Source: Heliocidaris erythrogramma (lineage: Eukaryota > Echinodermata > Echinoidea > Camarodonta > Echinometridae). Taken from it: 64,000 nt of DNA. Each line of letters starts with the position of its first letter. The first letter of the stretch is position 1. The notes under the pieces were generated by a model. The model saw only the letters and a list, made by a program, of their open reading frames with translations. It did not search any database and was not told the origin of the DNA. The translations under genes and the position numbers were made by a program. Location of the stretch: the NCBI GenBank assembly GCA_025617745.1, contig CM046853.1, forward strand, positions 59,047,233 through 59,111,232, read 5' to 3'. Of the stretch, positions 14,628 to 60,735 are shown one piece after another.

Positions 14628-14750
14628 GCATTTCATAAAACTTGTTATCAATAACTAGTTACAATAACAGTTATAAGCTACTGAAATCCTTGAATTTGAT
14701 TGGCTGAGAGCAAATTTGTCATAGAAATTGGGCAGTTGAAACAGGGACCA
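14628..14750 (+). mobile_element. MITE copy, truncated (same family as 58291-58435)
   Basis: Starts CATTTCATAAAACTTGT and continues TTATCAATAAC, AACAGTTATAAGCTACTGAAA and GATTGGCTGAGAGCA, colinear with the reverse complement of the element at 58291-58435. The far terminal repeat is missing after GGGCAGTTG, so this copy is truncated or decayed at its right end. Confidence 0.75.
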
Positions 14751-21100: not shown

Positions 21101-22060
21101 AGGTGTACACAAATTATTTTTCAGGTGATCGGTACACTTTAACACTACAGCATGTATCATAGAATCAACAATTAAATGATTGTGATTTATTCATATAGTT
21201 TCATATTTTTCAAGTCCAAACATTGTTTGAAAGAAGAAAAAAAAATAAGCATGGAAAAAAAAAAGTTTTTTCCATGCTCTTTTTTACATCTTTATATTTT
21301 GCTGGATAATGTCTGTAATAGAATGAAGCCCTAACAACTTTAGTCAAATGTAAAAGAAATAATTAATGATAACAAAGACAATCTTCAAATCTCCATTCCT
21401 GAGCATTCTTTTCTTTAGCTCAACACCAACCACAAATGCAAAAGAACCTGATACAAAAGTAGACAATGGAACAGTAAGTACAGTGTCTCTTACAGGATCC
21501 TACATGGATCTACAACTTTGTTATGCATACTGGTGCTAATGATGACACATGTATCCAGGAAGAGGAATGGACAGTGAGTGATGCGATCACAATCAGCCAC
21601 TTCGTTGCATTTGTTACCATGGCGATCGCTAGATGGTGGCTCCAGTGTCGTTTGAATTACCCAGAAGGGTACACATACAGTGAGTACATGTACATGTACA
21701 GGAAGCCCTCATTTAAAACTGAACAAGTCCTCAAGTATAAAGATACTACCACGTGGCAATGTGATGTGCAAAAGTCAAGTGAGATGTAGAATCACAAGTA
21801 CAGACCAACTATCAAATTTTGCTGGAGTAAATCAATAAGCGTAATATTTCACCAAAATTCACATAAAAATTATATTTACTTGCAGTACATACATCAGAAT
21901 CAGTCGGTGGAACAGAAATCCTCAATCAGTAAATCATCCCACAGCCCAACAACTTGGGGAAAAATGTATAACATACATGTACATGTATATCTAACACTGA
22001 TATCACCAAATATATATCTATTGATCAAAAAATAATTTCAAACGTGGAAAATTTTCTTAC

Positions 22061-22825
22061 CTGAAACTTGAACTGTAAACTGGATTGTCTGAGGAATATC
22101 TGATCCTCGCAGAGTAGGATTGAGTCTGATCCCACCTGTGGTAGTATTCAGAATCAGATGCTGATTGTTGTTGCCACTCGTGATCTCATAACTCAAAGTG
22201 TCAGAGACATCTGGGTCTGTTGCAGGAACCTGTCCTATATCATCCTCATGAAAGTATCCTTCATAATTGTTGAAGTAAATCTCAAAGTCTCCTAGGATGG
22301 GCGCATTGTCGTTCACATCAAGAACCTGGATGTGAACCGTAGCTTCAGCGAAATATGGGACATTCGTCGCATGGACAATGATCTCGTACTGATTTCTGGC
22401 TTCATAGTCAAACATTTCCAAAGAGATGATAAGTCCAGTGTCTGGGTTGATCTCAAAGTAATCCTGATCACCCCTGACGATGGTGTACTGGACATGAGCG
22501 TTGAATCCAGAGTCAGGATCTGAGGCAAGCAGTTTCATGACCTGCTCCCCAGGATTCCGATTCTCTCTGATCGTAACGTAGTAGTCCCGTTCATCGAATG
22601 TTGGTGGATTGTCATTGATGTCAGTGATCTCTACTGTTATCTGGGCAGAGGTCTTCAGTGATGGTACACCCTGGTCATATGCGAAAGCAACCAGGTTGTA
22701 TTCAGGCTGGTACTCACGATCAAGCATGGAGGCAACTCGTATGACACCGGATGTCTCGTCAATGGTGAATCGTCCTCCACCACTGTCACCATCTTCAAAA
22801 GTGTACTTGACCTCACTGTTTGAAC
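22061..22825 (-). CDS. CELSR: CELSR/Flamingo seven-pass cadherin, exon 2 (cadherin repeats 7-9)
   Basis: Second coding exon, 765 nt, phase 1 at both ends. The acceptor (pyrimidine-rich tract then TATAG) ends at 22826 and the donor GTAAGA starts at 22060. It encodes the rest of cadherin repeat 7, then repeats 8 and 9, with linkers DINDN and DVNDN. The segment with FNNY and ATDPDVSD resembles the CELSR membrane-proximal cadherin repeat, where vertebrate proteins have a similar FNNY and AYDPDVSD run. The spliced product so far is 1218 codons and completes the nine-repeat ectodomain block typical of the family. The downstream EGF, laminin-G, GAIN/GPS and seven-helix regions must lie at lower coordinates or outside the window; I did not find them in 1-22060. 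Confidence 0.92.
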
Positions 22826-25800
22826 CTATAATGCATACACAAAAAGAAAATACAAAATTTATGTTTATTTTTGTCACATGATATGAAAGTTTAGTTAGCT
22901 TCAGAAATAAAATCCAACTGATTTTAGAACAGACAATAAGAGTCAGTAACACATATCACAAAATTTTATAAGTCAATGAGAATGACAACTAATATGCGTT
23001 TCGACATAAGCATGTTTAGAGGGGGGAAATGAAGTAGACTTCTTATCTTTACCCTCTCTAACTTCTACTTCTTTTTTCTATCACTTTTGCACTTTTTTTT
23101 CTTATTAAATTATGTGAGAAATGAGAAAGGTTTCCTTTGCAAGAACAGGACAAAATAAAGCAAAACAAATGAGAACAATTTTAAGTAATGCTCACTCCCA
23201 TTTAGAAAAAACAATTAATATGATTTCTGTTACTACATGTAGCATCGTTTCTGTAATTTGGTTTACCTGGTAAGTTTTTTGCTCTTACATATATCCCTTG
23301 AAAAGAAAAATTCCCATATTTTTTCCTACTTCTCTAGACAATGTCAGAATCCTTTGTTAAGTACTCTTTTAGTTATGATAACATATACAAATGTATGATT
23401 ATAGTTATTTGTACTCTGGTAAACTTTTCTTTCTTTTTTTGTGGTGGGGGGGGGGGCATCTGTTATTGCTTTTTTCTTACATTCTACATATCAATTCACC
23501 ATCAAACTTGTTTCAAAACACTTGCAAAGTTTAATAACAATTGACTTAAATTCAGAATAACAAACAAAGTTTTAACATGCAGAACAGGATTTACACTTTT
23601 CTTCTAAAATAATCACCATTCTTTGACTACACCATGTTTGGATCCCACCGCTGCCACCAGTTATAGCACAAATTCCGTAATTTTTTATTCAAAACTATTT
23701 TGCCAAACATTATTTTGCACATAATGAGCCATACACCTTTAAAACTTTGCACATTTACAGTGCATAACAAGATAACTACATGCATTAATAGTTGTTGCAT
23801 TAATCTGCTCAATTAAAACAATCTACCACTTAAACACAAAATCATACATGTACACTGCCATTAAATCTCTCCTACATGTACACACATTCTAATGACCCTC
23901 TATAAAAGTACACAGGTACACACACACACAAGATAAACTAATTTACAATAGACAGCATGAATCAATGGAGGTCTAGTCCTTTTATTGTCTATTGACTCAT
24001 CTCTTTTCTGGCTCAGTTACATGAGTACCATGGTGCTGTATGGCTGGCTGCTTTTAGGCTTCTAATTTGAATATCAATAGATGCACCTTTTGTGAATCAG
24101 GGTTCAGAGATCTCATACACACATATCACACACTGAAGACTTGGGCTTAACCAATCAATGGCAATTGTTATTCTTGATCCTCCCATGCATTGGTGAAGCT
24201 TCAGAATAAATCGACTTTCTATCCCCTTATTCACCTACAATAGCTTCTCTTTGGGACATGTTTTGCACATGACACATGTCTCAACTGAATAACTATGAGT
24301 CTTTGATACACTTTTCGCGGGATTAATTTTTCGTGCTCGGCTGAGTAAAGTGAATTTCGCGTGTTTTTAATTTCGCTGACGCGCTAGGCCCATGCGCAAA
24401 AGAATACATAAACAAAAATATTGTTTTTATTTTCGAGCACATTTCATGCTGCGCGAAATGCGCGAAAATTTCCACACCGCGAAATATTCCACGTTTACAG
24501 TATGTCTCATTCTTTACATAATTTTGTGTGTCAATGGGACAAATTTTCAATTTCATTTATGTTTGCATGGGAAAATAAAATAAACTAAAATGTTTATCTT
24601 ACCCCACTCTTACATGTACATGTAATTCTACATGTACAATGTACTTCCTCTTTTTAGTTTTATATCCATTTTCTCTATTTCTTTTTCAAAACTATCTCTA
24701 AGGATTGAGAATAAATTCCTTGCAATAAAAAAACAATGAAATGATTGTGCAATTACTATTTACCTGTTAATGTATAAGGGCCTACATGTACATGTGTTGT
24801 GGTAATAAAATCAAAGTGATTTGTAATTAAGTAGTGGCTGATGAGTATTGTGTACAGCTGAACATCACCTTTAATTTGTTGTTAAAATTATTTATAGAAC
24901 CATTTTTACAACATTTTCTTTTCGGATTTAAATAGTACCCTTTAAAATTCAAGATCCTAATTCATGTAATCCACAATGAGACTGACTCTCTAATAAATAA
25001 TTTTATCCTGAGTTAGTTGTAGTCTCAGTTCTGGTGCAATTAATAATGTATAAAGTGTATAAATCTTGGAGTGTTTTATGTGAAAGTCCTATCTACATGT
25101 ATGGCTACGTACAGTTCTCATTTTATGTACATAGTCGGCACATTACTTTACTGGTGCATGCATTTGACCAAAGATCTGGCCAAGTCCACTGCTGCTGGAT
25201 CTCAAGGGTCATTTTAGCGTGTCTGCTGAATAGGTTACTATGGGAACTACCTACATGTACTTATATTGGTGTCATACACTACTTGTTTAGTAACACCGTT
25301 AGTAACAAAAATTGAATTCCAATATGAACATTTTGTACTGGAATTCATTTCAAGGAATTCCATAGTGATTTTCCCCCAAAATACATAAATTATCTTTTCT
25401 GTGTTACACACGTTTTGGATGACATTCACTTAAATACTATTTCACTTTACCAGTACTTCAACTTTCCTTTAGAGCTTACATGCAATCTGTTTTTATGTCT
25501 ATTACATCCTTTTAAAACTGAAAATTGTTGCTGCATTTTCTTACAAATTTTGAGGGCACATTTCCCTTCCTAAAGGTTTTTCTCCCAAGCAGATTGGAAT
25601 GTCTTTTACCTAATAGCAATCTCAAATCACACTCAATTCACTCTCTCATTCTCCAAGTCAAGGGGGTTGAGGCATTGTAATTAAGAAAATCAACTTTTGT
25701 ATCGTCTGGCACCTACTGCCGAAAGTCCACAAAAATATAGGTTTTCTATTCTTCTTCCCCCTGTGCATGAACACTTCAGTAGTGAGTAAATAGACTGAGC

Positions 25801-27843
25801 AACCATACAGTCCAATGGGTGTGAGTCAACACTTCTGGACTCCCTTTGTCCCATGCTAAAATCACGTTTGAATGAGGAGTCCCATTTGTACATGTATGTA
25901 CACATGCATTTGAATTAACTGCCAAATTGTGCAGACTGTGAAACTTGTCAACATCGCCCTCCCTTCAAGAATTCCCCCTGGCAGTCAGGGGTTCAAAATT
26001 CTAGTAGTAAACATTACATGTACACCCTTTTTTCTCTTATTTTTTTTTATTTTGTTGTTGTTATTTGGCAACAAAAAAAAAAGACAAAGAAAAAAAAATG
26101 ATTATGTTGCTTTCTTTTTCACTCTTTTTGCTAAAAATATCCTAGCAATTTCACAAGGATAAACTGCTTTTCAGCTTTTCCATTAAGTACATGTACATCT
26201 GGTCTCTGGTGCTTCTGAAATACATGTACTCTTAACCCATCTAATTTTCATTAATTAATAGTTTTTAAAAGGTTAAAGATATATATTGCTTTTCATTTTT
26301 TTTAGAGAGACATCATTGTATGATGTATTTAGATATGAATATATAATATCTTTTTGTATACGACTCATTTCAAATTATTCCATGTTGGTAAACAGAATGT
26401 TCATATTTCTACACCCATTTTTGTTAACACCGTGACAGTTAAAAAAGATGCTTTTCAATTCTCTGAGTAAGACTCTTTTTTTTTTTCATTGATATTTCTC
26501 AGTATCAAGACTATGATCTACGTATGTAATGTTATTAGAAAGAATGTAAAGTGTATGCAGAGTTCTTTCAATCATAGGGGCAATAACCCACAACATGAAA
26601 GGAAATCTCATAATAGATGTACATAGATGTAAATTACAATTCTAAGTGTAATACAGGATCTGTATGGAGGAGTAACAATGTCCCAGTACATGACACATGT
26701 TCAATCTTTCCACCACTGTCTTCCTTAGTTTACAAATTTTGCATAAATTAATGATGCCGCCTGATTACTGATGTAACCCTATCTTTGGACTCTAATACAA
26801 AGGCAAAGAATGTGTACAGGTAATATGTTTCTGTGACACAACCAATAGTAAAGTCCTAGAGCTCCTTCCCATAATTTCAATAATTTACTAAAATTCAATG
26901 TAGTTTGATATGAATAATCTGGAACCCTTACCAGTAAATCATGTAAATATTTTTTTTTTCACCAATTCATTTACAACTTGAAAGTTCAAGGAAGACAAAC
27001 CAATCATTCTAAATTTCTAAGAAGCATGTTATATGGTACAATAAACAGATCATAAAGGAATAAAAGTAAAGTGATTTTAAATTCAAAATAATTTATGTGC
27101 ATAAAACTGAGTAAAACAGGAATGTTTGGTATTACTAGAAAGAACACCAAAATCCCTACTTCTTTGGTACACAATAATGGGTTATAAATACATGAAATTT
27201 TTAGAGAAGTCAAAGCATTTGAAAAGATAAGTATCGCCACAAGAAAATATTGAAACAAGCAACACCACTCGGCACGGCAAGAGTTAAAGATAATGTTCTG
27301 GTTGTGGCATTACATTGTGAAAGAAACTGTCTCAAAGCAATTGAGAAAGGTTGATCATGTCTGCAAAGCTCATGCACTGCACACAGAAATGGGTTTATGG
27401 GACTGCACATATATCTAGCATTACTGTTCGGCCTGAACACTTCAGCTATTTCTTGTCAAATTTCTAATATTAAGGCATTTGAAGAGTAATCCATTTCAGG
27501 GGACATTTCTATTACATGTACTGTATGATGCTCTTCCAAACTGAAATAGGAATGAGAAAGCTCACAAATAATTTTTCACCTTTCCCAGAACTCAACCTTC
27601 TTTTTAATTGAAAGCAAACTGGCAAACATACTTTGGGGGCATTCAATTAATCATGCAGGCCTACACAACATCATTCGTGATGACCTCCTTCTTATGATCA
27701 TGGCAGTACATGAAAGTCTTATCAAAATGCCCCTCCCCTCAAAGAGTTTTTTCTTGAAAATCTTCAAACTTTACAAGGTGAACAAGTATTCTAATACATA
27801 AGAAACAAAATAACCTATGTGTGTGAAAAGAACTGATACCAAC
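22826..27843 (-). other. CELSR intron between coding exons 1 and 2
   Basis: 5018-bp intron bounded by GTTGGT (27843-27838) and AG (22827-22826), splitting repeat 7 in phase 1. It is AT-rich, with no convincing coding segment on either strand. It contains a poly-G run near 23444-23456, a (CA)n tract near 23920-23930, a CGCGAAA-rich foldback remnant at 24305-24501 and several TACATGTA-type palindromes. Confidence 0.85.
24305..24501. mobile_element. CGCGAAA-rich foldback remnant
   Basis: Contains TTTCGCG and CGCGAAA blocks in opposite orientation and ends CCACGTTTACAGTA. The blocks can pair across a centre near 24405, but the arms are degenerate. It lies in the CELSR intron and is non-coding. 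Confidence 0.5.
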
Positions 27844-30733
27844 CTTGATCTGCATCAGAAGCAGAAATGGTGATAACACTGGAAGAAGCAAGGGAATTCT
27901 CTTGAATTTCTGCCGTGTAGCTAGTCTCTTCAAACACTGGGGCATTGTCATTCACATCCTGGACTGTGACTTGGACATACGCTCTTGATTGCTGCGGGAT
28001 TATTCCATGATCACTAGCAGTTACATACAAGGTATAGGACGAGATGTCTTCGCGATTCAACAGCACCTTGGTGCGAATTTGACCACTTTCTTCATTGATC
28101 TCAAACTCAGCAGATTCATCCATGCTGTAGCTGATTTCAGCATTAGCACCGGCATCATTGTCAGATGCAGACACTGTAACAATAACTTCTCCGATATCAG
28201 CACCTTCACTGACATAAACATTGTAAGGTGAGTTCTGAAACACTGGCGCAAAATCATTGACATCAGTTACATTGATGTACACAGTGCAGGTGCTTTCAAA
28301 CTGCCTGTCCGATGCTGTAACTGTCAGAGAGTAGAAGGACTTACTATTGTAACTCAGTTGAGATGTAACAGTAATTGTTCCTTCATTGTTCTGAGTAAGG
28401 ATGTTGAAAGGGATACGGCCGGTAGGGTCCAGTGAGTCTACAATCCTGTAGGAGATAGAGTTCTGTTCATCAGGGTCTGTTGCTGTTACAGTCAATACCT
28501 CAAAACCATGGTAAGCATTTTCAGCTACGGAGGCATGGTAGACTTCTTCAGGAAACATAGGAGCATTGTCATTCACATCTGTGACAGTGATGATGACCGA
28601 AGCAGTGGATGTTTTGGGAGTCTCCCCATGGTCCATAGCAATCACCTCAAACTCCCAAGTATGTCCAGACTCCCTGTCAAGACTGACACTATTGGTTATA
28701 GCACCAGACGTAGGATTAATTTCAAAAGGAAAGTCGTTAGGAGGGTTTGGGACAGAAAAAGTTATTCTTGCATTTTCTAATTCATCATCATCTCTAGCCA
28801 TCACAGACAATATGGAGTAACCCACATCAACATCTTCCCGCACCACACCAGGGTAAACATTCTGAGTAAATTGAGGGCTGTTGTCATTAACATCCACCAC
28901 TGTTACTGTGACAGTTGTTGTGTTTTCCCTAGGTGGATTACCAGAATCTTGGGCACGTATGCTCAGTCTATAACTCCTTGTGGCTTCAAAGTCTAATGAA
29001 TTTTGAAGTGAGATGAAGCCATTGAGTGAATCAATCCTGAAGCGGTTTTCAAAGTTGCCATGCGTCAGACTAAAGTGGACATCAGCATTTGAGCCTTCAT
29101 CTGCATCTGTAGCCATGACATGCAGGATTTGGCTCTCAGGGTCACCTGGGCTGACATCTTCTCGTACAGATACCTCATAACTCAACTGAGAGAAGTGTGG
29201 AGAGTTGTCATTCAAGTCAAGAACTGTGAGCAATACATCGGCAGTTGAATTCCTTCTTCCAGGATCACTACCCATGTCTTGAGCCATCACTCGGATGTTG
29301 TATCTCTCAGTCTGCTCCCTGTCCAGTCGCACCACGGTCTTGAGCTCTCCACTTGTAGGATTCATCGAGAAGACATCATTTGGGCTCTCGTTGTTGACAA
29401 TGCTGTAGGTAATTTCAGCATTAGATCCCATATCATTATCTGATGCCCGCACTCTCGCAACCAAGGTTCCAGGATTTTGACCTTCATTTGTGGTCTCTAT
29501 GTAGCTTGTTTGCTCAAAAACAGGAGTATGGTCATTGCGATCATCTACATTGACTGTGAGGTAAACTTGAGCAGATTTTGGAGGGGTCCCGTGATCTGTA
29601 GCTGTAAGACGAAATGAGTGAGACTGAATTTGCTCCCTGTCAAGTGACGTAGTGGTTGTTATTATCCCTGTGTTTTCTTCAATAGCAAACATATTTTGGC
29701 TACGAGCATCACCCAGAGCAACCAGGCTGTAAGATAGCCGTCCATCTTCACCATCATCATTGTCAGTTGCAGTGATTGTATCCACAACGTATCCTGCATC
29801 TTCATTTTCTGGTATCACACGTGTGTAAATATGCTGACTGAATTGTGGATAGGTATTCCTTGCTTGCCTTCTGAAACGCTTCAGTACCACTTCTCCATTT
29901 TCTGATGCATTTTCAGAGAAGTCAGCATTCAAATGATTGGAGTCTGATGCACGTAACTCAATCAAAATAGGTACTATTTCCTCTTCAACCTTTTCCGACA
30001 AATAAGACTGAGGCTTTGCTAAGCAAGCTGATGGAATTTGTAATGATCCACTAATATGTTCCGACTGGTGCTCAAAGACACAAACCACATCATTTTCTGT
30101 GAGTAGTTTACCAGATTTAGCATCAATGTCAAAATGATGCTCTTTACCTTCATTTACGATGTATGAAATTGGGCAACCTGAAAGAGATTTAGGAAGGAAG
30201 TTATTGAGGGTCAACAGCACATCCCCAGGGAACCAGCATGTCCCTTCTAGGTATTCCATCATGATCTGAAGAGGTCGAGTTGCGGATAAAGGTGTGTGTT
30301 CAATACGATCCGTATCAAAATTCTTTTTCTTCGCTTTCCTTGGATGGCAACCAATCCCATGGACAGAAATTGCTATAGGTATCATCACATATGAGCCCAT
30401 TCTTTCAGAGGCAGTACCTGTAGTTCTTCCACGAGTTTGCACATATACCAAGAAAGGATTTTCATAAAGTGAAACACATTCCATATCTTTCGACAAGAAT
30501 AATTCCCCAGTGTTACTGTCAATTTCAATGTTTTCTTTCGCATCTTCTCCTGTTAATGTTGGATGAAGACCATATGACCATTCATTTCCCAGAGATGCGT
30601 TAAATACTGAATATCCCTGCTCTTCATAATTGGATAGATGAACATCGAAAGCTGCAAGAGCCGCGCCGTGGAACACGGCAGCGGCGAGCCACCAGATACG
30701 AAGAAGATAAGCCATAGCGGCAGGCAGCTCCAT
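27844..30733 (-). CDS. CELSR: CELSR/Flamingo seven-pass cadherin, exon 1 (signal peptide to cadherin repeat 7)
   Basis: First coding exon of a Flamingo/Starry night/CELSR-type adhesion receptor, a family acting in planar cell polarity by homophilic cell-cell contact. The start ATG has a strong context (GAA before, G after) and opens a hydrophobic signal peptide (about residues 1-28). A cysteine-containing pre-cadherin region follows, then a furin-type site RFRR at residues 286-289. Six complete cadherin repeats follow and the seventh begins; linkers carry calcium motifs such as DRNDH, DLNDN and DVNDN and each repeat has a DRE or DFE element. The donor GTTGGT is at 27843-27838, after CAAG, phase 1. 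Joining to 22825 restores repeat 7 without a break (DADQG followed by SNSEVKYT). CELSR is favoured over FAT, Dachsous or protocadherins because the nine-repeat array ends in the CELSR-like FNNY and PATDPDVSD segment in exon 2. Which vertebrate paralogue it matches cannot be said; invertebrates usually have one. Confidence 0.93.
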
Positions 30734-38834: not shown

Positions 38835-40019
38835 ATGCAGCGGCTGCAAGAAATAGTCGAAGACGAAGGGGAAATGTCGGAGCCCGCAGAAAAGGTCAAA
38901 TATGTTCCGAAAAAGAACGAATGGAGAGAGACAGGACTCCGATATGTCTTCGCAGGGATATCATGTATGTGTGCCGCAGCCGGTAAGACATCAAACGCAT
39001 TTGATAGCTTTTATTTTCTAACTTATTAGCACATCAAAAGTTGTTTCTTTCGCAAGTTTCGGTACCGGCATGACCGGTAGATCTCCCCACTTCATCGGTT
39101 CTTGTCTGGTGAACTTGTCAGTGTCTGATGGGCTGGGTCCCCGTCAAATCCGCGGGGGCTTAGCGCTAAAGTCCCAGCACTCAGCAGTATAAACATGATA
39201 AATCTTCTATTGAGACTTTTATTGTTGGTTCTAATGCTCCTTTTTTGTATAGACATATGTGCAAACTAGTAGTAGTACAATGCAAATCAATTTCCCAAAT
39301 AACGATGGGAGAAATTCAGATAAGATAAGTGCAAGTTTTGGTTTTGTGAATGTGATTTTGTCTCACTTTTGAGCCCAAATTGAGGGAACTTTTTACTGTC
39401 TTGGGGTGTTGCAATAGGGAGTTCGGTGAGTTTTGGACTTTTGTACTGTACCCCCACAAATTTGGTATCATTGGAAAGAGCATGCAAAGAGAAAAACAAT
39501 GGTAGTAAAATCAGCTTGATATGTTGAATATTGAGGAAGTTACAGTCAATTTTAGTGTCCGGAATCCCCATTTCATGTCTGTCGCCTTTCATTCTGACAT
39601 AGGAAAAATTACCAAAGAATTAAAGTTCTATATTATAATGAAAAAAAAATAACTTGAATGCATTACAATTTAAAACATTCTAAACTATTAATATTATGAG
39701 ACAACAACAAACAAGTCATAATAATAATAATAATTAATGAAATGTTATTGCAGAGGTTCAAATGGGTAAAAATGGGAAAACATATAAATAAGAATAAAAA
39801 AGGGTTAAGACATGAAATATATACTTGCTGTTTTTGTTAATGTATATTATATATATATATATATATATATACATCAATATAAATATATAAATAAATATAT
39901 ATATATATAAAATCATAGATGTGTATATAATATATAGATTATATATTTATTTATACATATATATAAATATATAACATATATACAAACATATATAATAAAT
40001 ATATATACCTATATTTATG

Positions 40020-40050
<31 letters not shown>

Positions 40051-40241
40051 CCATGGTGTACCTGCTCAATCCGACCTTAGGTTTCGTGCCTCTCTCAAGA
40101 CACTCCTCAGGGATTATCCCTGAGGAGTGTCTTGAGAGAGGCACGAAACCTAAGGTCGGATTGAGCAGGTACACCATGGATTAATATGCTCTGCTGTAAG
40201 GCATAGAGCACTCTTTGGAAGTACTCAATATTTCAACTTTC

Positions 40242-40279
<38 letters not shown>

Positions 40280-43200
40280 TTATAATTTATATATGTTATT
40301 ATTTTCTAAAGGTATTATTTCCTAAATACAAGACAATTAAACTACAAATCTTATGCCACTTGGCTATAGTCAGTATAGAAAGTAACGACTAAAACGAGAT
40401 ACATGTACAATATTACTAAGCAAAATCTACGAGATTCCTCATTTTCCTGATGTGTCCTTTTTTTTTCTAGTGTAGTGCGCTTCTATGCGCTAGCATGAAT
40501 CCATTATCATTGCATACCGTTAGATTCAGAAAACTTCAAAGTTTCTAAAAATATGGGTTTCCATAGGGTTTCTCCCCCTCCTTCATTCCTCATTTTTAGG
40601 TTTTCTGGCACAAAAGTACGCAAAATATAGCCCCAAATTGAAACTTAATATTCTCTGGTCTTGAAAAACAGGAAAAATGCTCCAAAACCCGGCAATCTTG
40701 GTACCAAATGAAAGCTTACGATCTCCAGTTGCATATGATCACTATTACAACGTGCCTTACGCAAATTTGATGAACCGGAAGTAGTATCAAAATGCAGAGG
40801 TCAGTCAGAATTATTTTCAAAATGGCGGCCACCAGTGAAAACGAGATCGCGTAGTGTTCCGAAGTCGGAGGATTTCAATACTCTCTATTTCCACTTTTCC
40901 GGAGATTCCAGTCAAATATTTGGTATCAAAAGAACAAGCAACTATCTGGCTACACGCAGATGTCTTCAAAAAGTTAAAATAGCATTGGAAAAGTTTTTTA
41001 TCAGCGATTTTCCAACATAGAGTTTCGCGTGTTAACAGATACATATTCAGAAAGCGCCGTTTCATCGAACTCGCTAGTTGCAAGAAAGTTGCAATCAACT
41101 GCAAATTGTAAAGCAAATTAGAACAACCATTCTGAATGGTTCAGGAATCAGGGTCTGCCCATTCAAGAAGATGCGCTTGCCACAATGATTTTGATTGGTC
41201 GGTACCGATCAGTTGCAACTTGCAATCAATCGCAACTTTCTTGCAACACCCCATTAGTCTTTTATTAGTTTTACACAAAGTAAAAGGATGGGTGATTTTA
41301 TTTCCGGACACTTAACAAAAATTAGCATTAAGTAACACTAAAACCAGTGAATATTTGCAATTCACATGATCATGGAATGATTTTCAACCTATCCTGTGAA
41401 AGATTTGTGACAATTTGTATGAAAAGTTGTTCGATTTACTGTTTAAAAATGACCTGTCTGGATTAACAACCTGTCAGGAATTTCAATGTCTGGGTAAACG
41501 TGTAAAGTTACAAGCTTATCTGAAGATAAGTACCATACTCCATAATAGTTTTCACAGGTGAATAGGCTAGCTTTTGTGTGTATCAGCAAGCCTTTTTCCA
41601 GTCTAGATCATTCATACATGAGAGGAAAATAATAAAAAAATAATAGCCTAGGCGTAGCTTGTCCTCTAGACGCACTGTACTGTGAGCAGACTCAGCATGG
41701 TGTACAGGATCGTGAATGACCTCGTCGCTATATCACAAGGCAAATTCTTTACCCTGAGCACTACAATTACAAGGAAAAACCACACCACGTTCTAAAGCCC
41801 TTTGAAGATTATGGAAGAAGGAGAAAATTTCACTTTCAACTCGTGAATCCCCAAATTTGTGGCACATTTGAAGAGTCCCTAAAGCAGGAAATGTAGCAAA
41901 TTCAAGAAAATTAAATCTTACTTATAGCAATTTTGTCTGTTTTTGACTCCTGCAACAGTGAATGTACGCAAGGGGTGAAGGTCCTATGACTGAGTCATCT
42001 AAGTGACTTTTACGTTAACTCCAGGGAGCTCCACCACCACCGCCTAATGTCGGTGGAGCGCCAGGTACAAATAACCAGTCTTCCTCGCCCATTAGTTTGG
42101 TCTGTCGCATTGCTTAGCTTTGACAGGTAAGATGGAAATTTGTACTTGAGTCTACAATTTAGGAGAAATACTGTAACTATCTGACCGGCATTTTGATTTC
42201 ACGATTTGACGATTATTTTGATGGAAAAAAAAATGGAATTTCCGAGCCGAGCTGATTTCCCCCGTACTGTATCGTTGATTCAAATGATTCAAATTCCATT
42301 TTTTTTCATCGAAATAATCGTCAAATTGTGAAATCAAAATGCTTGTCAGATAGTTACAGTATTTCTCCTGAAATGTAAGTACAAATTGTCATCTTACCTG
42401 CCGAAATTAATCCTGATTATTCGTAGTCTATAGATCTAGATAACTTCGCATATGTGTGAGTGGTGATTGTGAAGCAAAACAGATCATGAAGATCCGACTC
42501 TGTCTGCATTTCACTCTTAAACGAGATGCATTTTTAGTTTAGTTTACTAGATTATATAGACTATAGACCTATCTAACAATTGGATGATTTGGAATTCATT
42601 TTAGTTTTTTTCTCTTTCAACAAGCAACCAACCCCATTGATGTGACCAAAATACGTATGCAGCTTGAAGGGGAGCTGAATTCTGTGAATGCTAGGTCAGC
42701 ATATCAGCATCGCTACTACAAGGGAATAATCAGAGGAGCATTCACTATAGCGAAGGATGAAGGAATCAGAGGGTTGTATAAAGGGTGAGATCATCCCTCT
42801 CCTGTTATTTGATATGTTTTGCATCTTTGATGTTCAGTTTTCACCACATATTCTGTTTCTCATTCCAATGGATCAATGAATGATCAGCATTGAAATGATG
42901 ATTATTAGTACCGTTGGCCAATGTGGTGTTTCTGCTTCTTTCTGAAATTCATGAAATGGAGCACACGATGAGATTAAAAAAAAAAAAAAGAAATGATGAG
43001 ATCAATGATACATTGAATGTGTTAGCCCTGTGTACAGTGCACACTTTTCCTGCAACCTACATTTAGTCTTATCACTTAGAACCATTCAATAGCTCACATG
43101 CCTAAAGCAAAAATAATAAATCATATGTTCATCAAGTTCAATTTAGTGTCCACTTTTGTAAAGGATGAGACATTTATCAAAACATAAAGATACGAGTTAA

Positions 43201-46200
43201 AACAAAGAACATTTTTTAGTAGTACAATATAAAGACTATCATTGTGATGAGGAATGTGGAGGAGTAGCACATTTCAGTGACCTAATGAGGCTATGTTAAT
43301 TGTGTTAATGGAAGTTGGTTATCTTTAATGAGTGAGCTCTGAGGTCACAGTTATTGATACTATCTCTTCTTTTCTTTCTCTCCCAGACTCACTCCTGCTC
43401 TGGTAAGGGAAGCCAGTTACAGCTCCATCAGGATAGGTGCCTATGAACCCATCAAGCGTCTCTTTGGTGCTACAGATCCAGCCCATACACCACTCTACAA
43501 GAAGATTGCGTCTGGGGCTACATCAGGTAATATCTTGACAGGTGTACATATAAATGATCCCCTCTATTACTGTGCTACCAAGTTGAAAAAATACACCATT
43601 AATCATTAATCTAATTTCATTTTTAATAATATATTCATTTTTTGTTGTTGTGTACCTTGACGCAAACAGTTCTTTTCAGTCTTACCGTTTCGTAGTGTAA
43701 GTGAGTAAGTGAGATTTCTGAGAATTCCCCCCCCCCCAGAACACAGATTATCTACAAGATTGAAATCTACAGAAAATTTCATACGTGTATAGAAATCCAA
43801 TAACAGTATATTTGTATGCATGTAACTTTCAGTAACTTGTTCTAATGATTATTGGTGCATTTTGATTATGACAGGTGCAGTAGGTAGTTGGATAGCGACC
43901 CCCACAGACCTGATTCGTGTAAGACTCCAAGCAGAGGCCAGACTAGAGCCTGGACAGCAGCCACGGTACAGGGGTTTCCTGCATGCTGTCACTGATATAG
44001 CCAAGGCTGAGGGTCTGAGAGGGCTCTACAGGGGTACCGTCCCCACTGTACAGAGGGCCATGATTCTTACTGCTGCTCAGGTATATAGTAGGATCTTTCA
44101 TTGTGAAATTTTGGGGGATATCTTTGTGCGTGAGTCATAGTAAAATTACAGGTTTTAGAAGACTGTCATATCTCTTCTAAATGGTGTATTGTTTGTTTCG
44201 ATAGCAAAGATATGTGTTTTGATTGAATTTGAGCAAAGTGGATGGTCAAATGATACTTCGTGATTTTTGTATTACTGTGAGTGCATATTAATTACTGTCG
44301 AAAAGTTTTAACCTATCCATGTGTTGTGAGCGTTGTAGTGCCTTTTTTTTTTTCAAGATGTTCATATTGGGGAGACAAAGTTTGACACAGCGATGATGGC
44401 AGTATTGTTCAGAAAATTTATGCCTCACTGGTTGTGTGACTTATTTTGACGATTTAAAATTTTGTTTTTCCTGCAAATTTCACCTCTTCATGTAGGGGTT
44501 CATAGGGTTAGAACATGGTTTATTTTGGGTGTTGCGATTTTCAAAAGTAACTTTACGCTCCTTTATATGTAGCAGAGATAAATTTGAAAATGATCCAATC
44601 CTGTGTTCTGTCACCACTGCTAACCAGTTTCATTACTCTCTACAAACCCAGGTTCCGGCTTACGACCACACCAAGCACACCATGCTGAACCTTGGCTGGA
44701 TGGAAGAGGGCATGAAGTTACACACTTTCTCATCCATGGTGGCAGGCTTCGTTGCAGCACTTGCAACATCGCCGGTGGATGTCATCAAAACAAGGGTGAT
44801 GAACCAGAAAATCAAAGGTAAGCTTAAAGTAGAAGGATTTAATAATGATTATGGTTTGTATGTTTCAAAGCTAATCTTCCATGTACTGTATTTATTTTGT
44901 TTGAAGTCTATAGTCTATTCTTGTCATTACCTGACATTATCAGGGATCTTCCATATGAATTGAAATGAATTGATTTATTGTCCTGCATAACTGAAAAGCT
45001 GTAAAAGTAATTTATATGCTTCACATTTGTATAACAGCATATGAAAACATTCACAGATAAATAGATTAGAGATAAGGGGAAATCAAAATTTTCCTTGTGA
45101 GTGCTTCTTTTAAACAAACTACAGTCAACCTCACCTAAGTCTACGTCGCATGTTTCGAATAGTCGCTCAAGTCGATTTTTCCTCATAGACTTACGTGTGT
45201 TAATCCTTTGTACAAGTCAATTTTTGTAGGTCGAATACTCACCTATATCGATCAAATTCCAAGAACAATACCATGAAAAAGCATTAAATTTACACCATGC
45301 AAGTCGAACTAGACGGCAATGTGAAATCAGTCATTGTCGAAACTGCCACACAACGATTTTGTTTACAAAAATTCCCGACTTGCTGGCGCGATCTCCACAT
45401 CCTCTCTCACGCTCTCATGTGAAGAACAAAATGTCATGTGTTAAGTCATGTTTGCACGGCCACCGGCCAGACGGACGCCGTACCTGCACTGCATGCAGTT
45501 TTATTGCCTTCACGGCCATGTGCATATAAATGGATGTAAGGGAGGATTTAATACATTGGAATGAATTAATGTTACAGATATTAACAGACTACAACGAATT
45601 CAGAATCGTGCTCAAATGCAGGGAAATATGATCATGTGTCTCCCTTGTTAAGACAACTTCACTGGTTGCCTGTTTCCAGGAGAATAATGTATAAAGTTGC
45701 ACTGTTCGTTTGTCAGTCCATTCATAATCTAGCCCCCGCACTACATTTCAAGTTTGTTTTGCCCCATCCACAAATCACGTTATTCATTGCGTTCAAGGTC
45801 AGACCCTCTTCTTCAAATCCCCCACTTTAATTCGAAGAAAGGTCAACAAAATATAACTTTTTCTGGTCCTACCCTTCAACATTTGTTCCTGCCCTTCAGT
45901 TGAATCAGCTGAAAAAGAAATCTTAAGACTTATTTGTTCTCTCTATGATTGGATTTGGTTGTGTGCACTTGCAGAGCAAAATAATTACGTTGTTTCATTT
46001 TTTGTTATTGTAAAGCGCCTTGAGCATGTTATGGTAAGGCGCTATATAAATACCAATATGTATGTATGTATGTAATCGCTGGACGTGTCTGGTTTTATTC
46101 TTTATTGTCCAACTTGTAAAAGGAGTATTAAGTAATATATTGGGTACAAGAAAGGTACAGTACATGTATGTTCTTATTTTCTCGATGTCAGCATAATATT

Positions 46201-46957
46201 AATCATGGTACATTTTGTGATGAGAACTCCCAATCGATCAAACCGCTGGGCTGCTGGCCACAGTCCGCACTGCGGCGTCCCTGTGTTATGTATACAATGT
46301 ACACACGTAAGTCGGATTTTCTTCCGCACAAGTCGAATATCGCCTAAGTCGACGCATTTCACTCAGTCCTGTCATGTTCAACTTAGGCGAGGTTGACTGT
46401 AATTTGTTTTGAGATTATTTACATTACAACTCATTGACAGAAATGTTGTGGACATGTGGCTGTTTTCATTCAGGATGATTTTTTTATGATTTTAGACAGC
46501 ATTTGCAAGTCACCCAATTCCCTTACATTGCTTCACCTTCCCAGGTATCCAAAACAAAAATACAACATATTTTGTCACTTGTCACTTTTGTAATTTATCC
46601 AACCCTGCGGGGTTATGACAAAATACAAATTAGTAGGACCTCAGTATGATTTATACCACATTGCTGCCCCCATGCAGCAAGACACTGGCTCTATAATACT
46701 CTCTAGTCATTTTGTGTTTCAAACATACATGCCTCCTCCTAAGTCCTAAGTTTTGCTTTGTTTTCACAGATCTTCCAAAAGAAAAGCGTGCATACAAGGG
46801 CTCTCTTGATTGTTTCCTCAAGACGGTCCAGTCGGAGGGTATGTATGGTCTTTACAAAGGTTTCATTCCTAACTGGTTGAGGATAGGACCACATACCATT
46901 GTCAGTTTCATCTTGTTTGAACAGCTCAGAAGATTAGCTGGTATAGACCCTATTTAA
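38835..46957 (+). CDS. Mitochondrial carrier (SLC25, UCP-like), copy A
   Basis: Inner-membrane mitochondrial carrier of the uncoupling-protein/di-tricarboxylate branch (ucpB-, UCP4- or SLC25A14/30-like). Exons: 38835-38982, 42625-42784, 43387-43526, 43875-44080, 44652-44817, 46770-46957; all junctions are GT/AG and the frame stays open for 336 codons (335 residues). It has three carrier repeats, each with the P-x-[DE]-x-x-[KR]-x-[KR] signature: PIDVTKIR (53-60), PTDLIRVR (159-166) and PVDVIKTR (259-266). Each is followed by an EG..LY[KR]G motif. The first ATG has a poor context; a second at 38874 (MSEPAEK, 322 residues) has a better one, so the start is uncertain. The substrate cannot be deduced; proton leak or dicarboxylate exchange are family possibilities. 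AATAAA at 47251 is a candidate poly(A) signal. Copy B follows in the same direction. Confidence 0.93.
39846..40050. repeat. (TA)n-rich block left of the palindrome
   Basis: About 200 bp of TATA-rich sequence with short interruptions. A second (TA)n tract lies at 40243-40272. Both tracts are likely unstable. Confidence 0.92.
40051..40179. repeat. Perfect 129-bp palindrome (64-bp arms, 1-bp spacer)
   Basis: The left arm 40051-40114 (starting CCATGGTGTACC) is exactly inverted at 40116-40179, with a single T between. It sits between TA-rich tracts in intron 1 of carrier copy A. Perfect arms imply a very recent origin, active correction, or an assembly artefact. A transcript would form a 64-bp double-stranded stem. 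Confidence 0.95.
41074..41252. mobile_element. Foldback element with TTGCAAGAAAGTTGC arms
   Basis: The left arm AGTTGCAAGAAAGTTGCAAT and right arm TCGCAACTTTCTTGCAAC are inverted copies about 180 bp apart, followed inside by further GCAATCAA/TTGATTGC pairing. Resembles a MITE. Located in intron 1 of carrier copy A. Confidence 0.65.
42124..42400. mobile_element. 277-bp long-inverted-repeat element
   Basis: The arms run from CAGGTAAGAT (42124) to ATCTTACCTG (42400), about 115 bp each with a minority of mismatches. Matching blocks include ATACTGTAACTATCTGAC, ATTTTGATTTCAC and GACGATTATTT. A loop of about 60 bp separates them. It lies about 220 bp before exon 2 of carrier copy A. No target duplication recognised. 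Confidence 0.8.
45120..46401. mobile_element. TA-flanked DNA transposon remnant (pogo/Tigger-like ends) in carrier A intron 5
   Basis: TA then CAGTCAACCTCACCTAAGT at the left is inverted at the right (ACTTAGGCGAGGTTGACTG then TA). About 1.28 kb in all. AAGTCGA-type motifs recur inside both ends. TA target duplication and the CAGT..CCTC..TAAGTC terminus recall pogo/Tigger-type elements, a tentative match. No transposase frame remains; a LINE fragment occupies the middle (45560-46074). Confidence 0.6.
45560..46074 (+). pseudogene. 3' fragment of a non-LTR retrotransposon
   Basis: A degraded C-terminal reading frame is recognisable by PLLRQLHWLPVSRRI and a following SIHNLAP segment, matching the tail of the ORF2 protein in CR1/jockey-type elements. 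The nearby element at 59530 has the equivalent SLHWLPVEERMV. It ends with TGTAAAGCGCCTTGAGC..GGCGCTATATAAAT and an (ATGT)n tail at 46058-46074. Strongly 5'-truncated, with stops. Confidence 0.75.
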
Positions 46958-53387: not shown

Positions 53388-53905
53388 ATGCAGGAATGGA
53401 GGGAGACTGGACTGAGATATGCAGCAGCAGGTACTTCTTGCATGTGTGCATCTTGCTGTGAGTATAGTTTTACCTTGTACACTGGATGACTGATTTACAC
53501 ATGTATTCTGAATTATGTACAATACTCCCTTGATCATATTCATAGTCATATTACACAAAGCTACATATACATGTGTGCATTGAATGTACATGCATGTATT
53601 TCAATTCTAAGCATAAAAGCAAAGCTATATACATGTAGTAACACATTTTATTGTTGAGAAGTGTAATTAATTAATTGTATATTATGCCAACTGGATGTAT
53701 CTTACCCTGGAGGTATCTTACTAATACATGTATTGTTATATATTTTCTTGTGATTATATCCTGGCACTTACATGTTTAATATACATGTAGCTGCAGTCTG
53801 TAAGTATTATAGCTAGAAAACCACATATTGCTGAATGCATAACCATGTGAAATTTGCAAGTTTCACACATTTCTTGTATTTGGTTTCAGTGTGTGCAGCT
53901 TTAAT

Positions 53906-53954
<49 letters not shown>

Positions 53955-56900
53955 GGGGGAGAAGGGGGGGGGGGACAGATAGTAACAGAAGATACTATGT
54001 ACTCAAATGAACTTGATGATTTTGCTGCATATGTATTTCAATCCAATTATTTGTATAATCCGGTATATTGAAATTTGATTTCTTCTTATATGGGATATTA
54101 TTTGCTTTGAAAAGTTACTACCGGTACTCAAAGAGGTCAAAGTTTATGTGAATTATCCCATTTAATTACCACTATAAATATGCTCTGTAATATGTACTTA
54201 TACAGGTTTATAACTTTGTTGCTATATATGTACATATAGTGCACAGTGTAGGTGTACTACGGAATAGAAAAAGGAACCGTCAGAAAAATGAGTAGCCCCC
54301 CCCCCCCCCTTTACAAACCAGAAGCTGTAAAGGGCCTGAAACTGTCAGGATCATGTTGTGAAAGAAGTGAATTACAAATTCAAATCAATAATTCAATTTA
54401 TAAGTTACTATCGTGCTAAATCAGTAGGTGCCACTTTGTAATCTGGCACATACATGTATTTGCCTTGAGGATCTCTTAAATTCACATGTATTAATTCAAA
54501 TGCAAAATTAATTTAGAGATTCATACTCTCTAAGCAACTTGTATACAAGTTATAGTTTTCACATATTGGCTTGAAATATCCCTTTAAATCCCAGGTACCA
54601 ACCCGGTTGAGGTGACCAAGGTTCGCATACAGTTAGAAGGTGAGCTGATAAGACAGTCTGCAGCTACAGCCTACAGACAGCGCTACTACAAGGGACTCCT
54701 CAGTGGCTTGGTTACGGTTGCTAGGGATGAAGGCATCAGAGGACTCTATAAAGGGTTGGTATATCTTAAATTTCTCTCCCTGTATTGCTCTATAAGTTAA
54801 TTACCGTAATATGTATAAAAAGGTTGATAAACATTTTGTTTTGATTGGGCAACTTTTTGTCTTAGAACTTTTTGCTACTGTGGTACTACTAAGTACTTTT
54901 CTTTTGATATATTTTACACTCGTCAGGAAGTCAAAAAGTGTTATTCCCCAAAATTAAAGGCTCATGATTAAACTTTTTCTACAACATAGTTCAAGGTATT
55001 TAAAGGTTGTTTTTTTTTGTATGAATGTCTCTGTCAAATAAAGTGTCCACACATGAAGATATTGATAGCTTGCATGAAAGGAAATATGTCATGATTTTCA
55101 TTGATATTTAAAGAAGCTTTCACCATAGAATCAGATTAAAGATTTTTAAAATTCACTTTGATAGATGACCCTACATAAAATTTAACAGAAATCAGAAAAA
55201 AACTGCTTGAGTACATGGCAACATCTGTAAAAGACTGAGAACCAATCATGAACAATTTTAGAATATATCCATTTCCATTTCAGACTCACACCTTCATTGA
55301 TTCGAGAGGCCATTTACAGCACACTACGTTTGGGTGCATACGAACCTATCAAGAATTTGTATGGGGCTAAAGATCCAACTAGAACTCCCCTCAGTAAAAA
55401 GCTTGCAGCTGGTGCTACGTCAGGTAAATTATTTAGAAATTTTAGATTTGGCTTCATTCCAGCAAAGAGACTGGCAAATTATCATACATAGATATGACAA
55501 TGAAGCAGAGTTGAAGCAGATGCAGTGGGATGGCTGAAAAGACATGTATATACATGTAGTTGGCTTATTTCTTGTTATCTAGAGCCATAAGTTTGAAAGT
55601 GAATAGATGAACCGAGGCAGGGAGCCTGCAGATGATGTATCCTGCAGGCTTAATAGGTATTTCCACTCATAGAAAAACACAGAATAGTATATTAACTTGC
55701 ATGCTTTCTTTATAGTTATGATGCACTTCAAATGAAAAACAGGGTGCAATCTGTTGGGTTTTTTCAGAGATACGTCTTTGCATCTCATGAGTATTTAATA
55801 TTCTAAGGATGGATTCTTTCTCTGCTTCAAGTGCCCTTAACAGCTGATATGTTGGCACTTTGAGTTTTTCGGAGATGCATTATTGCATCTGATGAAAAAT
55901 ATTTGATAATCTTAAGATAGGTAATTTCTTGCTCTGCTTCAGGTGCCCTTGGAAGCTGGTTTGCCAACCCTATGGACATTGTAAGGATTCGACTCCAGGG
56001 GGATGGGAAACCACTGCCTGGACAGCAGCCACGGTACAGGGGTTTCCTGCATGCTTTCACTGATATAGCCAAGGCTGAGGGTCTGAGAGGGCTCTACAGG
56101 GGTACTGTTCCCACTGTACAGAGGGCCATGATTCTTACTGCTGCTCAGGTACGGGCATATTGAATTAGATGGACTGGATATTATCATGGGAATTGCGAAA
56201 TAGTTCTGAGATTTTTCCTGCTACCTTTAATAATCGCCCATGTAATTAATCATGCTGAGTTCCAACTTCTGAAATGTTGTACAGGTCTTACAATATGAGT
56301 AAATCTGTGTGTGCTTTAGATAATAAGCCTTATACTACATGGTATGTGTGACAGCTGAAAAGTGTGCTTAAGTCCAAATTACATGTTCTAAAAACCTGAC
56401 AGTAATAAGGTTTTTAATTCCTGGAACCTGTGAAGAAAATAGCATTACTGTACATAAAGGAACACAAGTTGGAAAAGTGTTTTTGACTTGATTCTTTCCC
56501 ACAAGAATGATGCAGACCTATTTCATTTCTTTTATTCATCATGAGGAAACCAAATAGATAAATATGGTCATTTCTGGAACAAAAAATATGTCAAAATGCT
56601 TTTCTGATTTTTTTGTTTTTATTCACCATCTTGTATTTCACCTCATAAAAAGTTATTAATCTATCCCAATCAAGCCATGCGAGTTTGACTCTTCTTTTCT
56701 TAATATCTTCTAGGTGCCTACCTATGATCACACAAAGCACACTATACTAAATAGAGGGTGGATGACAGAGGGGGCAAAGCTGCACTTTGTTTCATCAATG
56801 GGGGCCGGTTTTACCACAGCATTTGCTACTTCGCCAGTAGATGTGATTAAAACAAGAATTATGAACCAGAAAATAAAAGGTGAGAAATCAACAAAGAGCC

Positions 56901-57459
56901 AGTATCACATATTCTTATGATTATAAATATAATTATTTTATGGATCGAGAGAAAAAATTATTTCCAAAGGAACCAAGTTCCTTAGATTGGGGTTGCAGGT
57001 ATAAAACCATTGCATCAACAACTATAACAGGGACATCCTCTTTAACAGGGAGCTATATGAAAGTCATAAATATAAATACAATGTATGTGGTCCTTTCCTC
57101 CTTTTTCAGACTTCCAGCATCTGTCAAAATGATTTTGTAGACAGTCTACACATAAGAGTATATGTGGAATTACTGAAATTGTTTGAAGTGTAGTGAAACA
57201 TTGAAAAGAACAAAGAATGCTCTGTTTAACTTTAATTTACATGATATTTTCTCTATTATCTTTCCATGCAGGCATTCCTAGGGACCAGATAATGTATCGA
57301 GGGTCCCTAGACTGTCTTCTCAAGACGCTACGTAGTGAGGGTTTGTATGGTCTCTATAAGGGCTTCTTCTCAAACTGGCTTAGACTTGGACCTCATACGT
57401 GTATATCACTCTTAATCTTTGAGCAGCTCCGACGTCTTGCAGGAATACAGCCACTCTGA
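53388..57459 (+). CDS. Mitochondrial carrier (SLC25, UCP-like), copy B
   Basis: Tandem paralogue of copy A. Exons: 53388-53457, 54595-54754, 55284-55423, 55943-56148, 56714-56879, 57272-57459, giving 309 residues and a TGA stop. Exons 2-6 have the same lengths as in copy A (160, 140, 206, 166, 188) and all intron phases agree. Start: ATG at 53388 with an in-frame TAG six bases upstream, so copy B lacks the roughly 26-residue N-terminal extension of copy A unless an upstream exon exists. Signatures are PVEVTKVR (27-34, Glu in place of Asp), PMDIVRIR (133-140) and PVDVIKTR (233-240); EG..LY[KR]G motifs are present. It should sit in the inner mitochondrial membrane; substrate unknown. The acidic residue of each signature is kept, so it looks functional. 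AATAAA at 59140 is one possible poly(A) signal. Confidence 0.93.
53907..53974. repeat. (GA)n followed by poly-G, in intron 1 of carrier B
   Basis: About 35 bp of GA dinucleotides then two long G runs separated by GAGAA. Homopurine throughout. Confidence 0.93.
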
Positions 57460-59529
57460 AGAATTCCTGGGGTGTTCACTCTGGAAAGAAGGTGTAAGGT
57501 TTGAGCTAGGATTTCAAGCCCCTATTTTGCAGAAAACTGGGATATTTTTTTACACAATCCTTATATTTAGTACTAATGTAAACTGTAAAGCACCCTTTAT
57601 TTCAAGGAGGATTTTTTTTAACTTGAGAATATGTATCTAGGATTCATGGTCAGGAGCCCAGCCATATTTCATAAAAGTCAATATTAGAGCCATGGAGTTA
57701 ACACTGTTTCTAGGCCAAACATATCCAAGGGTCTGCCAGTCATTAAAAAAAGTAACTTTACAATTCATATATCAAAACTAGATTTTAAAAAATCTAAAAA
57801 ATGTCAATCTAGTAGATTATTTCTTACAGAGATTACCAAAGATAAGTTTTGGTAAAAGAATACACTTTTTAAGATAAGTTAATTTTGATTTTTTAACATG
57901 ACCAGACATATACTTTTGTACTTATATTTTGAATATATGGCTAAAAGGTGATGTTGTTTACAACAAATCTAAAAGTATTTTGTGTTCTGATAATAGGGCA
58001 TTGAACTATGAAATGCATAATTGCCATTGATTTATATAGGTATTCCAATTTAATCTGAAATAAGCTGTCAGAGTTGTCATCTTTCTGAGACATAACCTTT
58101 CTGTTATCACAGGTGCAAAATGATATTGCCTTTGTACATGTACTTCAGTTTCTATCTGGGGTTACTAAGGTGATCAACCATAAACTCAATATTAAAATAT
58201 TGTGGTATTTTAGTTTAGGAATCGCAAAATGCAGGGGATATTTTTTTAATTCATTTTTTTTTATAGAATTAAGTTTATGTCATGTGTTCTGGGCCCCATT
58301 TCATAAAACTTGTCAGTAACAACTGCCACATTTCTATGACAAATGTGCTCTCAGCCAATCAGATGCAAGTATTTCAGTAGCTTATAACAGTTATTGCAAC
58401 TTGTTATTGATAACAAGTTTTATGAAACAGGGCCCTGGTGTGATATTTGGAAGTCAATTTATAAGTCTGTACTTGTCTGACCCAATATTGCTAATTGATG
58501 CAACAACCTGTGTGTAGTAGTTTATTTCCCTTTTAATCAAAATCATATGACTGAGTGCAATGATTGAAATTGGATACATGTATTAGGTCTTCAGGTTGCT
58601 ATCAAACTTATAGCTCTATGATGCACATGTCTGTCAGGATCATGTGTGTTGTTAATCATGTTATTACTGTTATAATGCAAATGCTTCCCATAGAGGTACT
58701 GATGTGTATGTTTAATGTAATCAATTGGATGGTAGTTTGTGTACACTCAGGACTTCTTCATGTAAATATAAACTTCATTTTATTAAAAAAAAAATTAACC
58801 TATTCTTTCTATTTTCATATGAGTGTTTTGTACCAAAGTTTTATATGCAGATTTTTATCCATTTATTTCATTAAAGTTTAAGAGAAAGTTAAATCTGCAT
58901 TGTGTTTGCATACTTTATGCTATGTCATTGGTGCAATTATCACAAATGTGGTTCATTAAGAGGAATTTGTATTTTGAGGGCTGGGGTTGCAGATTTTTGG
59001 TCATGCATCCATACGCTGGTATCCACTTTTTGTTTTATTACAATATACATGTAAAAGATTGTCCAAACATGGCTTATACCTTTATTGTCCATGAAACATA
59101 TAAGGTCCCCCCCCCCCCAAGATAACAGTATCAGGCAACAATAAAGACCAACATACAAATCAAAATGGCTCTAAAATGAAATTGCCTTCTTTTTTTAGAC
59201 AGTCATTTAGAAAAATATTTTAAATAATATGTGAATACAAATCAAATTTTGAACACTGATTACATCATCATTGAATTATAGAGAAGAGAAGTAGGTCATA
59301 TAAATTCTCAGGTATCTTTGATTGACAGCTTGTTTATTACACAGGAAATACTTAAGTGCAATTTACACAAGCAGGTGTAAGTTTGGTGATATGTACAATC
59401 CAGGAATGAAGAAATCTACATGAAATCAACAGGGAGTAATTTTATGGCCATAATTTGTAAACAAGGAGGAATGTGTAATCAACTACATGTATAAATCAGT
59501 AAACTTGTAGAAATATTGGGTCAGTCCTT
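57460..59529 (+). other. 3' flank of carrier copy B
   Basis: Likely includes the 3' UTR. AT-rich with no gene. Contains the MITE at 58291-58435, a poly-C run at 59107-59118 and AATAAA at 59140-59145. Confidence 0.5.
58291..58435 (-). mobile_element. Complete MITE with GGGCCC..TTTCATAAAACTTGT ends
   Basis: The left end GGGCCCCATTTCATAAAACT and right end (reverse complement GGGCCCTGTTTCATAAAACT) extend to CTTGT, a terminal inverted repeat of about 23 bp around a 145-bp element. A second, truncated copy in the other orientation is at 14628-14750, so this is a dispersed family. Confidence 0.82.
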
Positions 59530-60735
59530 TTTGGTCTTTTAATAATATTAATGACCTTGCTGTCTTCCTCTATGTTAAAGGTCAAGCCCTGGAATGGTTT
59601 AAATCATACCTGCCAATCCTATCATGTCATTCTCAAGCTGTCTTGATAAACGGTTGCCTTTCAGATTTTTTACCTCTTACATGTGGAGTTCCGCAAGGCT
59701 CTGTGGGCAGGCCCACCATGTTTTCATTGTATTTAACCGGTTTGAAGAATATGTTTCATCACCACTCTCTTTCTTATCATGTTTATGCTGATGATAGTCA
59801 AATATATACTTCTTTCAAACCCAATCAGAGCAATGAAGCCAGTGCTATCTATACTCGTGAGACATGTGTACAAGATGTTCGTAATTGGTTGAACTCACAT
59901 TCACTAAAATTAAATCTTGCTAAATGTGAATTTGTAATGTACGGTTCTAAGACTCAGTTAGAGAAGATTTCCATCACTTCACTTACTCTTGCTGGACATG
60001 AAATTACCTTATGCAATATATGCCGTAACCTTGGTTCTCAACTCAAATATGACTATGTCTACACTAATTCAATATGTCTCAAAATCAGTTCGTTATCAGT
60101 TATGCAATTTAGGTTTTATTCGTAAATATCTTAACCGTAGTGCCACTGAGAAAATTACTCATCCTTTAATCTCATCTCGCTTGGATTTTGGTAATGGCCT
60201 CTTGTTTCGTTTACCTCACAACCTACTCGCAAAATTACAAAAATTACAGAACGCCGCTGCTCATGTTGTGAACCTCTCCAACAAGCACAGTCACATTACA
60301 CCAGTTCTCAAATCACTTCACTGGTTGCCTGTAGAGGAACGTATGGTTTTCAAGATTCCTTTGTTTCACTGTATACATGGCTTTGCTCCGCAGCTCAGCA
60401 TTGGTTTGATCAAGCATTACATTCCCTCTAGACTGCTACGTTCTCAAAACTCTGGCTTACTTGTTATTCCTAGGCGGGGGGAGCGAACCTTCGTTCGTGC
60501 TGGGCCGTCAATATGGAATACTCTCCCTCAAGGGATTAGAAATAGCAGTTCTGTTGGAGTGTTCAAAAATAATCTTAAAAAGTATCTGTTTAATTTGGCC
60601 TATAATTGATTATCATTACCTTTCATGTCCGTACCTCTCCTATTGCACTTTTGCTTATTTTTCATGTATTTCATCTTTTGCACAAGTTGCGCTTTGAGCA
60701 AATCTTATATATTATTATATTAATATTATCCGTCT
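59530..60735 (+). pseudogene. 5'-truncated, frameshifted non-LTR retrotransposon (CR1/jockey-type reverse transcriptase)
   Basis: The first frame (from about 59577) reads the palm of a reverse transcriptase: ALEWFKSYL, CGVPQGSV, then YADDSQIY with the catalytic Asp pair, and LNLAKCEF. It stops at 60125. The second frame takes over near 60045 and continues with LGFIRKYL, ISSRLDFGNGLL, SLHWLPVEERMV and AGPSIWNTLP to 60609. Both belong to one ancestral protein, so a frameshift near 60045 breaks it. Endonuclease and N-terminal parts are missing. The end (GCGCTTTGAGC near 60689, then TAT-rich) is a worn version of the 3' tail at 46010-46074. Confidence 0.85.

Follow-up and report, generated by a model that had tools for sequence, protein, structure and literature searches.

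Two old tandem paralogues, predicted to encode mitochondrial carriers and here called genes A and B, have very probably undergone interlocus (ectopic) gene conversion in exon 4, where some 133 bases were replaced without loss of register or reading frame. The window, that is, the whole stretch of 64,000 bases that was analysed, has 36.6% G+C and zero N, and the case for conversion is built on this one sequence. Between 43948-44083 in gene A and 56016-56151 in gene B, 133 of 136 positions are identical, GTA included, and the recount agrees with the preliminary description, which had put the match at 136 bp with three differences. These fall at 43988 (G in A, T in B), 44038 and 44041 (C in A, T in B at both); the first causes a Val/Phe replacement and the remaining two are synonymous. 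In the 44 whole codons of the tract (43949-44080), 43 amino acids are identical, compared with 177 of the 265 aligned codons outside it. By codon alignment, nucleotide identity is 0.98 in the tract and 0.57 in the upstream part of the same exon, with values of 0.65, 0.69, 0.69, 0.71 and 0.62 in exons 1, 2, 3, 5 and 6, respectively; the neighbouring exons had earlier been judged roughly two thirds identical, which fits the range of 0.57-0.71 measured outside the tract. The coding DNA outside the tract has 66% identity (34% divergence), and no exact run there between the aligned coding sequences is longer than 15 bases. A near-identical tract between paralogues, flanked by such strongly diverged sequence and alone in its low synonymous divergence, is the pattern by which conversion is recognised.

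Both genes were modelled from the sequence alone and are co-directional, with six coding exons each (Table 1). Exons 2-6 are equal in length between A and B (160, 140, 206, 166 and 188 bases), every intron of the two models is GT...AG and both frames are open, the first exon of gene A having been placed by tblastn with exon 1 of gene B. The predicted proteins have the three Mito_carr repeats and approximately 300 residues (322 in A, 309 in B) of SLC25 carriers, and the Pfam matches cover three stretches in each (E 3.9e-70 for A and 4.1e-67 for B). When the gene B protein was used as the query, the nearest solved structures were UCP2 (2lck, E 1e-57) and then UCP1 (8g8w, E 3.2e-48); the three Mito_carr stretches per protein, together with UCP2 as the best solved match of B, are what the pair would share with the UCP branch of SLC25. 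With the same query, tblastn found no third carrier copy within the 64-kb window. Uncoupling proteins proper are defined by purine-nucleotide-regulated proton transport, and A and B presumably resemble the 'ucpB' or UCP4-type carriers. The donor of intron 2 is an unusual GTTGGT in gene B (54755-54760), its counterpart in gene A being GTGAGA.

Table 1. Coordinates of the two carrier genes, the near-identical tract and its surroundings.
Feature	Position	Strand	Partner in B	Remarks
Gene A, predicted mitochondrial carrier, 322 aa	38874-46957	+		intact frame, GT/AG introns, Pfam
Gene A exons	38874-38982, 42625-42784, 43387-43526, 43875-44080, 44652-44817, 46770-46957	+		
Gene B, predicted tandem paralogue of gene A, 309 aa	53388-57459	+		intact frame, GT/AG introns, Pfam
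Gene B exons	53388-53457, 54595-54754, 55284-55423, 55943-56148, 56714-56879, 57272-57459	+		
Tract, copy A (the 3'-terminal 133 bases of exon 4)	43948-44080	+		
Tract, copy B (near-identical)	56016-56148	+		
Exon 4 of copy A, diverged 5' part	43875-43947	+	55943-56015	identity 0.57, pS 0.81
Intron 4 of A	44081-44651	+	56149-56713	unalignable to B from the first bases

Other features were also recorded in the window. Intron 1 of gene A holds a near-perfect palindrome at 40043-40187 (a 145-base opposite-strand self-match of 96.6%, with adjoining AT repeats) and a fold-back inverted repeat at 42124-42400 (79.6% opposite-strand self-match), which ends 225 bases before exon 2. A 108-base repeat is present in opposite orientations at 14631-14738 and 58320-58427, with 91.7% identity, one copy being approximately 0.9 kb downstream of the gene B stop. 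Downstream of gene B, on the plus strand, there is a reverse-transcriptase fragment at 59643-60609 (RVT_1, E 3.8e-15 on 59643-60125), which we take to be of the non-LTR type and which is probably decayed, as it runs on into an overlapping frame (59989-60609) that has no Pfam match. On the minus strand, two large cadherin-repeat frames (22038-22952 and 27815-30733; Pfam Cadherin, with CELSR2-like and FAT4-like cadherin domains) are perhaps exons of one gene.

The synonymous sites speak for conversion. In the 44 whole codons of the tract, pS is 0.058 (2 of 34.3 sites; 95% interval 0.007-0.195) and pN is 0.010, while outside the tract pS rises to 0.737 (137.9 of 187.2 sites). By segment, pS is 0.80, 0.59 and 0.66 in exons 1, 2 and 3, 0.81 in the upstream part of exon 4, and 0.80 and 0.82 in exons 5 and 6; four of these six segments are beyond the Jukes-Cantor limit, the Ks values of exons 2 and 3 being 1.18 and 1.55. 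Thus, when synonymous divergence is followed along the genes in sliding windows, as had been suggested beforehand, it is low in the tract only, and the uniformly low divergence over all exons that would have spoken against conversion is not what we observe. At positions where the two copies share a degenerate amino acid, the codons agree in 40 of 42 cases within the tract and in 77 of 169 elsewhere (Fisher p 5e-10, for a tract that had been picked beforehand in the preliminary description), and only about 15.7 of the 42 would be expected were synonymous sites saturated. The earlier observation that near-identity extends to synonymous sites is therefore borne out, and the preference for recent conversion over selection on the protein alone is supported.

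Selection for the protein, or for the nucleotide sequence itself (e.g., through splicing signals, RNA structure or an overlapping gene) could in principle maintain such similarity in the absence of conversion, and the high amino-acid identity of the tract is what would be expected in that case. Nevertheless, we consider it extremely improbable, as the synonymous choices are alike too, far beyond the number expected under saturation. Moreover, the predicted folding of the two copies on both strands is no better than that of shuffled sequences (z 0.52, 0.36, -0.13 and -1.07), and no Rfam family matches at gathering scores. Conservation towards UCP2 is not exceptional in the tract either: over its 43 residues both copies have an identity of 0.42 to this protein, and over 240 residues elsewhere A has 0.35 and B has 0.38, with single segments there reaching up to 0.48.

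As the tract had been chosen in advance, a scan of the whole alignment is a fairer test than the Fisher comparison. In a fragment scan with mismatch penalties of 4 and 8, the observed best score was reached by none of 10,000 codon shuffles with either penalty, and in a scan restricted to synonymous differences (penalties 2 and 4), by none of 50,000, again with either penalty. The fragment with the highest score runs from 43948, exactly the first base of the tract, to 44653, the second base of exon 5. More lenient penalties had been used first, and the stricter ones were chosen after seeing their result, which was much weaker: 362 of 20,000 shuffles reached the observed score in the fragment scan with a mismatch penalty of 2, and 980 of 50,000 in the synonymous scan with a penalty of 1. 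We judged these lenient penalties unsuitable because scores drift upward at the level of identity between A and B. The longest exact run, of 49 bases, was reached in 2 of 20,000 shuffles. The near-identity of the tract is not due to chance.

On the left side of the tract, near-identity begins within exon 4, after 72 aligned bases (24 codons) at 57% identity, and the sharp edge that had been noticed inside this exon is confirmed by the step in identity from 0.57 to 0.98. On the right, the tract ends at the exon-4 splice donor. Counted from the donor on, intron 4 of A and B has 7 matching bases in 30, 12 in 60 and 25 in 100, which is the level of unrelated sequence, and when introns 3 and 4 of gene A were compared by BLAST with their counterparts in gene B, only matches of 10-26 bases with E 0.26 or worse were obtained. 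The claim that the match continues into the donor GTA thus holds in that these three bases are common to both copies; they are only the splice-donor signal, however, beyond which the intron cannot be aligned. With a synonymous difference of only some 6% in the tract, one would still expect to recognise the start of the intron had it been converted, which indicates that the tract stopped before the intron. For the same reason, the data do not fit an older conversion that spanned the intron, with the intron drifting afterwards. Since exon 4 has 206 bases in both copies, the replacement was in register. The tract had also been described as the second matrix helix and the loop that follows it. The helix is indeed included, but in the carrier topology that we assume here the loop precedes the helix, and the tract presumably comprises this loop, the second matrix helix, an [aromatic][K/R]G turn and the start of membrane helix 4.

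The coincidence of the right edge with a splice donor would also be produced by a sub-case of conversion in which the patch was templated by the mRNA or cDNA of the neighbouring gene, as such a template likewise stops at the exon edge. This seems a very slight possibility, given that both models keep intron 4 and have a diverged exon 5, and that the limit of DNA homology predicts the same edge with no extra step. An assembly artefact, in which reads of one copy filled or polished exon 4 of the other, is also improbable. Although a single sequence was compared, and short reads can in general be confused by a near-identity as long as 133 bases, the window contains no N, a fully collapsed consensus would show none of the three differing sites, and the joined segment keeps both register and frame and stops at a splice donor.

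The sequence itself shows the tract, its edges, the fall in synonymous divergence and two open gene models; the conversion, its recent date and the route of repair are what we infer. A break within the acceptor's exon 4, or next to it, may have been repaired by strand invasion and synthesis off the homologous exon of the neighbouring gene. The right end of the tract would lie where homology between the exons stops and unrelated intron begins, any copying that overran into the intron having been trimmed, and its left end within exon 4; later point mutations would then have produced the three present differences. Conversion is non-reciprocal, the acceptor being overwritten and the donor staying as it was, but a donor test by codon usage favoured neither direction: the log-likelihood ratio was 0.24 nats over 40 shared codons, and calibration stretches of A and B averaged -1.52 and 1.27 (standard deviation about 2.5), each having the wrong sign. 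At the Val/Phe site (43988) the aligned residue of UCP2 is Tyr, which hints that the Val of A may be derived; this concerns the later mutation and not the direction of copying. Carriers being in general a multigene family, one or both copies might instead have been overwritten from a third such gene in another part of the genome. Only a small probability can be given to this sub-case of conversion, as tblastn detected no such copy in the window and linked tandem copies are likelier partners.

Conversion between A and B has to be reconciled with a divergence of about one third and with the lack of a long identical seed. Homeologous repair or microhomology-driven template switching, rather than the classical conversion of near-identical copies, is a tentative explanation that we regard as possible but doubtful. 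Either the local likeness was higher than the average when conversion took place (perhaps because of earlier conversions there) or the repair tolerated an unusual divergence. In any case, these two old tandem paralogues offer a clean example of conversion bounded by an exon, and may serve as a test case for the divergence that ectopic repair can tolerate. It also calls for caution, as exon 4 alone would mislead trees or dates, and where A and B are alike, near the second matrix helix and at the beginning of helix 4, the likeness reflects history and is not evidence of a special function.

Searches for relatives by two-protein alignment confirmed none of 26 stretches with the peptide pattern in viral contigs and none of 599 in prokaryote genomes. 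Among the literature matches listed, no title deals with conversion in uncoupling-protein or SLC25 tandem genes, and comparison is made here with other systems. For instance, a review of Caenorhabditis paralogues quotes a survey of 7,829 duplicate pairs with 35-99% identity, in which tracts averaged 117 bp (range 12-2,958); the tract of A and B resembles those of nematode paralogues in its length and its location in an exon (PMC3966223). According to the same review, conversion is usually reported in exons, although nematode tracts often include introns, unlike the present one; proximity, it is suggested, may help moderately diverged neighbours to convert (PMC3966223). The fog-2/ftr-1 pair cited there is 82% alike overall, compared with the 66% of the A and B coding sequence outside the tract (PMC3966223). 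Experimental tracts, which derive from the same process, are longer, with averages of about 200-300 bp and, in one yeast study, about 500 bp (PMC3924818). Diverged surroundings are the mildly surprising feature of the tract. The divergence of A and B outside it, 34% at the DNA level, exceeds a threshold for conversion that is cited as being 'as high as 20 percent', and this counts against conversion (PMC3728101). The paper that cites this threshold also describes the GOT1Sd and GOT1Sr genes of the copepod Tigriopus, in which conversion between paralogues is largely restricted to exons and adjoins an unalignable intron, as in A and B; in that pair divergence is described as being restricted to introns, whereas A and B have diverged in all exons but part of one (PMC3728101). 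Given that tracts of about 120 bases and exon-confined conversion have both been published, the conversion between A and B appears to be an ordinary case of a well-known kind.
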